Shown: one piece after another, positions 49,599-54,534 of the stretch
Position numbering within the stretch: the stretch's first letter is position 1
Layout of the letters: every line of letters begins with the position of its first letter
Assembly: GCA_016933965.1 (NCBI GenBank)
Contig: JAFGTS010000022.1
Coordinates: forward strand, 1-64,000
Direction: 5' to 3'
DNA: 64,000 bases
Source of the DNA: Deltaproteobacteria bacterium
GTDB taxonomy: Bacteria > Desulfobacterota > Syntrophia > Syntrophales > UBA2210
Notes under the pieces: model-generated
Databases searched by the model: none
The model's input: only the letters and a program-made list of their open reading frames with translations
Told to the model about the DNA's origin: nothing
Position numbers and translations under genes: made by a program

Positions 49599-51062
49599 TC
49601 AGTAAGCGTAAGTGTTCGTCTTCTTCGCGTGGATCTCTGCTACGAGGCGGGCGATCCTGGCAACCTCCCGCTCCTTTTCCGGATAATCAAAAACGTTGCT
49701 GTGGGTTTCCAGATAGGAGGTATCAAAGGTTCCCTTCTGGAAATCCGCGTCTTCGCAGATGTTGAGATAGAAGGGAATCGTTGTTTTCGGACCCACGATA
49801 AGAAAATCATTGAGGGCACGCTTCAGGCGCTGAACCGCCTGCTCCCAGTTATGCCCACGGATGGTCATTTTAACGAGCAGCGAGTCATACTCGGTCGGTA
49901 TCTTGTATCCCTGGTATGCCATACCGTCAAGCCTGATACCGGGACCCCCCGGAGACTGGTAGACCTCGACCCGCTTCCCTCCCTCAGGCATGAAATTATT
50001 TTTGGGGTCTTCGGCGTTGATCCTGACCTGGATGGCCTTTCCCAGCAGGTGGAACCGGACTTCGGGTATCTCAAGCCGATGTCCTTCCGCTATCCGTATC
50101 TGTTCCCGCACGATATCCACGCCGGTAAGCATTTCCGTGACGGTATGCTCCACCTGGAGCCGCGTATTCATCTCCATGAACCAGAATTCATTCGTCACGG
50201 AATCGACCAGGAATTCCACAGTCCCGGCATTGAGATATCCGGCGGAAGCCGCGGCTTCTACGGCCGTTTTATGGATGGATTGCAGAACATCCATGGGGAG
50301 GTCCGCCGGCGCGATTTCTATCAACTTCTGATGGCGGCGCTGGATCGAACAATCCCTGGTTCCCAGATGTATGACATTCCCCTGTGAGTCCGCCAGTATC
50401 TGGACCTCGACGTGACGCGGCCGCTGTATGTATTTTTCCACATAGACATTATCATCGTTGAAGGCCGACCGCGCCTCCGCCCGCGCCTGCGGCACCTGGG
50501 TAACGAGTTCGTCCCTGCTGCCGATCTTTCTGATCCCCCTGCCGCCGCCTCCCGATGACGCCTTCAACATGAGGGGGTATCCAACCCGCTCACCGAAGGC
50601 CACAGCTTCCGCGATCCCCTCTTCACCCTTTGCAAGGTTGTCGGTTCCCGGAATGGAGGGAATACCCGCTTTTTCCATGATCTGGCGGGCAATGATCTTG
50701 TTCCCCAGGTTTCGGATGACCTCAGGCGGCGGTCCGATGAAAATCAGCCCCGCCTCACTGCATGCCTGGGAAAAATCCGGATTCTCCGCAAGGAACCCGT
50801 ACCCGGGATGGATCGCATCCGCCCCCGTTTTCCGGGCGGCCCATATCATTCGCTCTATATCAAGGTAATCCTTTCGCGGTCCGTTCCCGATAAGTATCGC
50901 GTCATCGGCGAATCTGATAAAGACCGACTCGTTGTCGGGCCGCTCATAGACTGCAACAGCAGTGAGACCGAGTTCCTTGACGGTCCTGATGATCCTGAGG
51001 GCTATTTCACCCCTGTTCGCCACCAGAACCTTCCGTATCTCCCTTCTTGGCTGCATTTCCAC
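49599..51062 (-). CDS. biotin carboxylase subunit (PycA/AccC-type)
   Basis: 487 residues. RKVLVANRGEIALRIIRT, HPGYGFLAENPDF, the ATP-grasp loop SSGGGGRGIRK and FMEMNTRLQVEHTVTEM are intact, so it should carboxylate biotin with ATP and bicarbonate. The extended length beyond about 450 residues (QKGTFDTSYLETHSNVFDYP) is typical of pyruvate carboxylase subunit A rather than acetyl-CoA carboxylase AccC, and the partner gene supports this. Confidence 0.92.
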   Translation of the reverse strand: MEMQPRREIRKVLVANRGEIALRIIRTVKELGLTAVAVYERPDNESVFIRFADDAILIGNGPRKDYLDIERMIWAARKTGADAIHPGYGFLAENPDFSQACSEAGLIFIGPPPEVIRNLGNKIIARQIMEKAGIPSIPGTDNLAKGEEGIAEAVAFGERVGYPLMLKASSGGGGRGIRKIGSRDELVTQVPQARAEARSAFNDDNVYVEKYIQRPRHVEVQILADSQGNVIHLGTRDCSIQRRHQKLIEIAPADLPMDVLQSIHKTAVEAAASAGYLNAGTVEFLVDSVTNEFWFMEMNTRLQVEHTVTEMLTGVDIVREQIRIAEGHRLEIPEVRFHLLGKAIQVRINAEDPKNNFMPEGGKRVEVYQSPGGPGIRLDGMAYQGYKIPTEYDSLLVKMTIRGHNWEQAVQRLKRALNDFLIVGPKTTIPFYLNICEDADFQKGTFDTSYLETHSNVFDYPEKEREVARIARLVAEIHAKKTNTYAY

Positions 51063-51141
51063 CTTCCTGTCGTAGCGTATTACAAAGCGCGGTATACTAC
51101 CCGGACCTTACTATCATGTCAAGAAAATAGGAGAGGGGGTA

Positions 51142-51370
<229 letters not shown>

Positions 51371-51382
51371 GCCCCGATCATC

Positions 51383-52782: not shown

Positions 52783-54375
52783 TTAACCCTTTGCGGAAAA
52801 ATCAATCACCGGTCTTCCCTCTCCGTAGACAAGCATGCGATAGGTCTTTTCTATCCGGTCCCAGTTCTCTTCCCGGTCCATGGACCAGTAACGGCCGATG
52901 ACGGAGGCGACCACCCCGCCGCCCAGTTCCCGGCATTTCTGTTCGATCTTCTCAATATATATGGCGCCGCTTTCCGGTTTCTCCCCCCTCCGCCCGAGCA
53001 TGGCATGGATAAAGAAGTCCCTCACACCCTGCCGCCGGGCCAGTTCCATCAGGGCATAGAGATGGTCAACGGAACCATGGGAACTGAAAAAAGACACGAT
53101 CCCCATCAGGTGCAAAGCGCCGCCGCTGCGTTTGCATGCATCGATGACCTTAAGAAAAGCATCATTGTTGAAAAAAGAGCCGTCCGCTATCGCCCGGTCT
53201 ATCCTGACCCGATCGGAATATACCCTTCTTCCCGCACCGATGTGAAGGTGCCCGACCTCGGAATTTCCCACCATCCCCTCAGGAAGCCCCACCGCTATGC
53301 CGGAAGCGGCCAACCGCGATACACTGTGACGGCGCATCAGGTCGTCCATCACCGGTGTCTTGGACGCGGCGATCAGGTTTCCCCGCGTCTCATCGTTCAG
53401 ACCCCATCCATCAAGGATGAGGAGCATCACGCGCTTCGACGGAGCGATGTGTTCATCAAGGAGCAATGTGTTCCCCGTCATGACCGCCGGTTTTTCTATT
53501 CCAAAGATCTGCAGGATCGTCGGGGCGACATCGGCAAGTTCACCTTCCTTCTTAAGATTCACCTGCCCTGTTCCCGTCACGACCATGAATGGCACGGGCG
53601 AGTCCGTATGGCCCGTGTCGATTGCGCCGTCGGGATAGAGCCACTTTTCCACCGTCCCATGATCGGCCGTCACGAACGTCGTAACTCCGGCCCGCCCGGC
53701 TTCATCCAGGAGGATCCCCGCCGTTTCATCGACAACTTCGACGGCCCTCCTGATCGCACTTTCATTTTCAATATGTCCCACCACATCGACGTTCGGAAGG
53801 TTCACGACGACAAAATCATAGGTCACGTCACGGAGGGCGTCGATGACCGTGGAACGGATCTTTTCTATGGACATTTCAGGGGCTTCATCGAAGAGCACGA
53901 CATCCTTTCTGGTGGGAAGGATCGATCGTTCCTCGCCCGTGAAAGGCTGAAAGGATTTCCCGTCAAGGAAGAAGGAAAGATGAACGGCTTTTTCCGCCTC
54001 CGTTATCTTTATCTGCCGTTTTCCCCGCTGAGCCAAAACCTCGCAGAGGCTGTCACGGACCTTCCCTTCCGGTGGAAAGGCGACCTTTACGGGAAGGTCC
54101 TCGTGATACTGGATCATCGTCGCGTACCCGAGACGGAGGTCGTTTTCGACGGGAAATTCGTGAAAATCCCTTTCAACGAGGCTTCGCGTCAGTTCTATCT
54201 CACGCTCCCCCCGAATGTTGTAGAAAATGACCGAATCCCCCCGCCTGATACGGCCCACCGGATTTCCCCCGTCATCCGCGCGAACGAGAGGCTCAAGCGT
54301 TTCATCATCCTTGTCCGGCCCGTAGGATCCGCGGACGGCCCGGGACATGCAAAGATCACGTGATGCGTCTGTCAC
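52783..54375 (-). CDS. circularly permuted phosphoglycerate mutase (GpmI family)
   Basis: 530 residues. The normal second half of GpmI comes first: FYNIRGERE (R55, R58), EAEKAVH (K129), NVDVVGH (D197, H201), TADHG (D238, H239), GHTDSPVPF (H256), to VMTGNTLLL. Only then follows the normal N-terminus LLILDGWGL (D322) with GMVGNSEVGHLHIG (nucleophile S372), H433 and GRYWSMDRE (R495, R501), ending YGEGRPVIDF. The metal and Ser residues are all there. SDGGVHSH reads SFFSSHGS and LDGRDTPP reads LGRRGEKP, so substrate loops differ. GTG start with AGGAG 6 nt upstream. It should interconvert 3- and 2-phosphoglycerate, or a related phosphoester. Confidence 0.85.
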   Translation of the reverse strand: MTDASRDLCMSRAVRGSYGPDKDDETLEPLVRADDGGNPVGRIRRGDSVIFYNIRGEREIELTRSLVERDFHEFPVENDLRLGYATMIQYHEDLPVKVAFPPEGKVRDSLCEVLAQRGKRQIKITEAEKAVHLSFFLDGKSFQPFTGEERSILPTRKDVVLFDEAPEMSIEKIRSTVIDALRDVTYDFVVVNLPNVDVVGHIENESAIRRAVEVVDETAGILLDEAGRAGVTTFVTADHGTVEKWLYPDGAIDTGHTDSPVPFMVVTGTGQVNLKKEGELADVAPTILQIFGIEKPAVMTGNTLLLDEHIAPSKRVMLLILDGWGLNDETRGNLIAASKTPVMDDLMRRHSVSRLAASGIAVGLPEGMVGNSEVGHLHIGAGRRVYSDRVRIDRAIADGSFFNNDAFLKVIDACKRSGGALHLMGIVSFFSSHGSVDHLYALMELARRQGVRDFFIHAMLGRRGEKPESGAIYIEKIEQKCRELGGGVVASVIGRYWSMDREENWDRIEKTYRMLVYGEGRPVIDFSAKG

Positions 54376-54534
54376 GGCTCACTCCTGTCGGTCAATAGTC
54401 CCGGTAGTAGTATTACAGTGCGTCCTTCTTGTCAAATGTTCCGGAAGCGGGACGAACATGCTTTTCGGTTGAAAACGGGCGATGTCCGTGATAACGGTTT
54501 ATCTTCAATAATCAGTGGAATATGCGCATTACCG

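Follow-up and report, generated by a model that had tools for sequence, protein, structure and literature searches.

A circularly permuted GpmI protein from a Syntrophales genome belongs to a multi-phylum family with altered substrate loops

The window, a stretch of 64,000 nucleotides from a draft genome of the Syntrophales (contig JAFGTS010000022.1), carries on its minus strand a gene of the GpmI family of phosphoglycerate mutases (PGMs), whose open reading frame runs through 530 codons in a single frame. Its coordinates, frame and GTG start are as an earlier note on this DNA had given them, and the upstream sequence confirmed the AGGAG motif at a spacing of 6 nt. The gene and the segments of its product are the following, with the basis of each assignment in brackets:

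52783 to 54375, minus strand: permuted GpmI-family gene, 530 aa, GTG start (open reading frame, profile and structure alignment)
54382 to 54386, minus strand: ribosome-binding site AGGAG, separated from the GTG by 6 nt (upstream sequence)
53461 to 54342, minus strand: residues 12-305, the half that is C-terminal in standard GpmI, i.e., the rest of the transferase domain and then most of the phosphatase domain (TIGR01307 positions 215-504; 1EJJ 220-510)
53431 to 53460, minus strand: residues 306-315, linker from the old C-terminus to the old N-terminus (alignments)
52813 to 53430, minus strand: residues 316-521, the part that is N-terminal in standard GpmI, i.e., first phosphatase strand, nucleophile and first part of the transferase domain (alignments)

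The neighbours in the window are a radical SAM gene downstream as well as a divergent gene for an unknown 168-aa protein together with a protein-isoaspartate methyltransferase gene. In the interval that separates the biotin carboxylase gene from the radical SAM gene (51060-51380), open reading frames translate to short repeats (MDYGLRIMDYGLWIMDYGLW, PPFPKGE), which suggests repetitive non-coding DNA.

In standard GpmIs the N-terminal part with the nucleophile precedes the C-terminal part with the metal ligands, whereas in the window protein the two halves are rotated. The NCBIfam model TIGR01307 (GpmI) matches in two pieces, residues 12-305 to model positions 215-504 and residues ~314-522 to positions 6-214, and the score summed over both pieces (477 bits) lies above the curated cut-off of 331. 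Alignment to the Bacillus stearothermophilus structure 1EJJ gave the same picture, with residues 314-521 corresponding to chain positions 4-211 and residues 14-306 to positions 220-510. Both comparisons bear out the circular permutation that had been read from the motif order. The new ends therefore fall within the stretch 211-220 of the B. stearothermophilus (Bst) transferase domain, the domain to which the breakpoint had been assigned, between the helix ending in ...LVYGEG and the helix of the AVRxAY motif. The short linker proposed to join the old ends was also found; it comprises ~10 residues and differs among family members in both length and sequence. The LLILDGWG motif is present, although it starts at residue 318 and not at about 316. 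The ApgM model TIGR00306 reached 44 bits (cut-off 320) and covered the metal-site region only. The open reading frame thus encodes a cleanly permuted GpmI. The structure prediction that the earlier note had recommended, carried out with AlphaFold2 on an alignment of 40 permuted sequences, yielded a confident fold (mean pLDDT 90.9, pTM 0.87). All 22 significant matches of a PDB fold search were GpmI structures, most of them aligned over only ~275 of the 530 residues, which is to be expected of a sequential aligner that meets a permutation.

A rotated order could also stem from an assembly artefact, a pseudogene or a frame break, and the window's genome is indeed a draft of 55 contigs. However, no frame break occurs in the open reading frame, and the same order was found in one open frame in 80 loci from independent assemblies and in a genome consisting of a single contig (G052; 3,179,300 bp). 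With permuted homologues in these loci and in related genomes, we rejected this explanation, which has next to no probability left. A full-length permuted homologue of 58-66% identity is present in 26 of 59 related genomes, with one further copy cut by a contig end; the related sequences are permuted rather than in standard order, and the window's own genome contains no other GpmI match. In a genome-wide scan, in which the best 80 of 387 relatives were kept as loci, 80/80 were permuted with the same order and breakpoint, whereby some of these loci are on the same contigs as the homologues from the related genomes. Identity to the window protein is 50-66% among permuted members, which were found in Syntrophales (Syntrophus, Smithella), Aminicenantes, Chloroflexota, Stahlbacteria/WOR-3, Zixibacteria, Armatimonadetes, Eisenbacteria and Acidobacteria. 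Their prevalence is modest in the genome samples taken (14 of 297 genomes of the phylum; 11 of 60 genomes of the class that includes the Aminicenantes genome G082). For phylogenetic analysis the permuted sequences were rotated back, and a tree of 46 permuted and 40 standard-order GpmIs (an earlier tree had 28 standard sequences) separated the two groups by one branch with a support of 100. The permuted proteins are an old, monophyletic family. It is widespread among bacteria and apparently undescribed: in line with the earlier note, which knew of no GpmI permutation, the open-access literature yielded no report of one (subscription journals and preprints were outside this search).

Relatives outside chromosomes were considered as well. 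There were 44 plasmid records with relatives, all less than 60% identical, and those listed match in separate pieces, like standard-order genes; IMG/VR returned no relatives. Plasmid or viral copies of the permuted gene were therefore rejected. Two observations concern standard-order genes. Most standard-order GpmIs of the order (L130-L141) group apart on a long branch of their own, and their R185-R191 stretch is altered (SGGGRM), which sets them off from the type usual in bacteria. A gpmI gene on a Streptomyces plasmid (L150) lies beside an aroA gene on a very long branch and possibly encodes an enzyme of secondary metabolism.

The catalytic residues and substrate loops map to the window as follows, with the Bst equivalents in brackets:

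53773 to 53787, minus strand: D197...H201 (D403, H407), metal ligands, conserved in 81/81
53659 to 53664, minus strand: D238-H239 (D444, H445), metal ligands, conserved in 81/81
53608 to 53610, minus strand: H256 (H462), metal ligand, conserved in 81/81
53410 to 53412, minus strand: D322 (D12), metal ligand, conserved in 81/81
53260 to 53262, minus strand: S372 (S62), nucleophilic serine in GNSEVGH, conserved in 81/81, codon read
53071 to 53094, minus strand: SFFSSHGS (428-435) in place of SDGGVHSH, H433 (H123) kept, by sequence comparison
52966 to 52998, minus strand: LGRRGEKPESG (460-470) in place of LDGRDVGPQTA, with D151G, G152R, D154G and V155E, R463 (R153) kept, in 81/81 permuted vs 0/40 standard sequences

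The two-metal site and the nucleophilic serine are thus invariant in the permuted family, and the residues assigned to them earlier (D197, H201, D238, H239, H256, S372) sit exactly at the GpmI-family positions. Likewise, the equivalents of the anion-binding residues His123, Arg153, Arg185, Arg191, Arg261, Arg264 and Lys336 are kept in 81/81 permuted sequences. The substrate loops differ: D151-G152-R153-D154-V155 is replaced by G-R-R-G-E and G121-V122-H123-S124 by S-S-H-G, each in 81/81, Y187 is replaced by W, N447 by T or S, and G409 mostly by E. Asp154 is reportedly located at the substrate hydroxyl in the B. stearothermophilus structures of Jedrzejas and co-workers. Retention of the phosphate- and carboxylate-binding residues, together with replacement of the loop on the hydroxyl side, suggests that the phosphoserine chemistry is unchanged while the substrate is another one or is bound in another way.

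It could also be that the protein is a true phosphoglycerate mutase, i.e., a permuted GpmI isozyme with a rebuilt loop that serves glycolysis or gluconeogenesis beside another PGM and uses E465 for the hydroxyl-side aspartate. All other catalytic residues are kept, the score exceeds the equivalog cut-off of TIGR01307, and E465, which is invariant in the permuted family and only one residue away from the lost D154 position, might take over the role of Asp154; this counts against a new substrate. The substrate loops are less certain in the AlphaFold2 model (block means 65-84), and therefore the placement of E465 cannot be judged from it. However, D151, G152 and D154 are kept in 40/40 standard GpmIs, even in those with ~35% identity to the window protein, so that the isozyme would have lost residues that are otherwise invariant.

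This reading also has to be weighed against the other PGMs of the carrier genomes. The window's own genome encodes a PRK04135-type iPGM (561 bits; cut-off 468), which is likely the housekeeping PGM, and no GpmA or standard GpmI was found there. Overall, 54 of the 61 carrier genomes also encode another canonical PGM (standard GpmI, GpmA or PRK04135-type iPGM); homoserine-kinase-like ApgM relatives, e.g., one adjoining homoserine dehydrogenase, were left out of these counts. In the sample of the order, where ApgM matches were sorted into types by score with a check on two proteins only, another canonical PGM is present in 23/28 genomes with the permuted gene compared to 28/32 without it (Fisher p = 0.72), so the permuted gene does not track with the absence of another PGM. 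In the other groups, 31 of 33 genomes have another PGM, namely PRK04135 in 28 (three of them split), GpmA in two and standard GpmI in one. Among the seven genomes in which no other canonical PGM was found, four encode a histidine phosphatase whose activity is uncertain, and in three no candidate was found; these three speak for an isozyme that acts as PGM. Summed incompleteness of the order's 28 genomes predicts only ~1 missing gene, whereas five were seen; incompleteness thus explains part, but not clearly all, of the seven cases. One genome of the order that is 94% complete (G050) has no PGM of any searched type. Thermotogae and Deinococci hold only archaeal-type iPGM, which supports that this type can be the sole PGM of a cell (PMC2964296). 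On the other hand, two PGM types in one cell are common, as in E. coli with GpmA and GpmI (PMC2964296), and redundancy is therefore no proof of another function. Taken together, a permuted PGM isozyme is a serious but less likely alternative. As for the earlier label "GpmI-type phosphoglycerate mutase", the assignment as a permuted GpmI stands, whereas the mutase function is doubtful, given the loss of D-G-R-D in every permuted member and another PGM in most genomes.

The gene neighbourhood was rejected as a guide to the substrate, since neighbours differ between phyla: they are only locally conserved, and none that is conserved across phyla or names a substrate was found. In 30 of 73 loci (L035-L080, mostly Syntrophales), the next gene downstream has the same orientation and encodes a macro-domain protein, and ABC exporter genes are near the permuted gene in Aminicenantes. 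A transaldolase-sized gene is located upstream in three related loci and was identified as transaldolase in L085, which would suit an isozyme in central metabolism; clustering with tpiA/eno, as seen here for some standard gpmI genes, was however not observed for the permuted gene. In three Chloroflexota loci (L084:9572-10198, L089 and L093) the permuted gene is immediately followed by a gene for a histidine phosphatase, with an overlap of 1 nt in L084. The nearest model for the one protein scanned is MSMEG_4193, below its cut-off, and the phosphatase is a possible pathway partner of the permuted enzyme. Such a gene pair, together with an intact metal and serine site and changed transferase-domain loops, would also fit a phosphatase or phosphotransferase without mutase activity, in which the phosphoserine forms, the loop cannot reposition the product and the phosphate passes to water or another acceptor. 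However, the transferase-domain arginines are conserved as strongly as the phosphatase site, suggesting that both half-reactions are still selected, and we regard a loss of mutase chemistry as improbable.

Our preferred reading, to which we lean with some reserve, is therefore that of an active metal-dependent phosphoseryl phosphotransferase with a single origin by permutation of GpmI and probably a different, glycerate-like substrate. In the reaction, Ser372 would take up a phosphoryl group and give it back, assisted by two divalent metals. Since the arginines and the lysine for phosphate and carboxylate binding are retained, the substrate would be a phosphorylated compound that resembles glycerate and bears a carboxylate. 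The main reaction is probably other than the housekeeping 3PG/2PG interconversion, since the hydroxyl-side aspartate is lost and a new Arg and Glu line the loop. A single tandem duplication, followed by in-frame fusion and trimming of the outer parts, is the probable origin of the permutation. Standard-order intermediates already bearing G-R-R-G-E were not seen among the 40 standard sequences, the closest found in the phylum included, and the window's own genome showed neither a further GpmI match nor repeats of at least 25 bases around the gene that could be remnants of such a duplication.

Compared to known enzymes, the permuted family shares with GpmI/iPGM of the TIGR01307 type (1EJJ, E. 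coli GpmM) both domains, the two-metal site, the nucleophilic Ser and the anion-binding residues, and it differs in its rotated halves and in the two loop changes, D-G-R-D-V to G-R-R-G-E and GVHS to SSHG. The nearest standard GpmIs found show ~40-50% identity per half. The ApgM-type PRK04135 iPGMs are of the same alkaline-phosphatase superfamily but have only the metal-site region in common with it; they are ~400 aa long, not permuted, and have a different transferase domain. A precedent for a PGM relative that turned to another substrate is PhpG (CMP-5'-phosphonoformate--3-phosphoglycerate phosphonoformyl transferase, NF038358), whose model gave a weak match in 2/40 permuted members; unlike the family described here, PhpG is ApgM-like, neither GpmI-like nor permuted.

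To our knowledge, natural circular permutations of enzymes of central metabolism are rare. Here, the permutation is unanimous across a multi-phylum family and coincides with an equally unanimous change of the pocket, so that the family allows a test of whether permutation and functional change go together. We see an even chance that the permutation through the GpmI transferase domain founded a multi-phylum family in which the 3PG pocket gave way to a new one, and that these enzymes shift a phosphoryl group within some other phosphorylated hydroxy acid, a reaction not yet described. Automatic annotation in databases names the family a glycolytic mutase, and the actual reaction may differ. The curated GpmI model accepts the permuted proteins as equivalogs though both order and substrate motif fail, and because of this blind spot, pathway reconstructions for Syntrophales, Aminicenantes and Chloroflexota may credit the wrong PGM.
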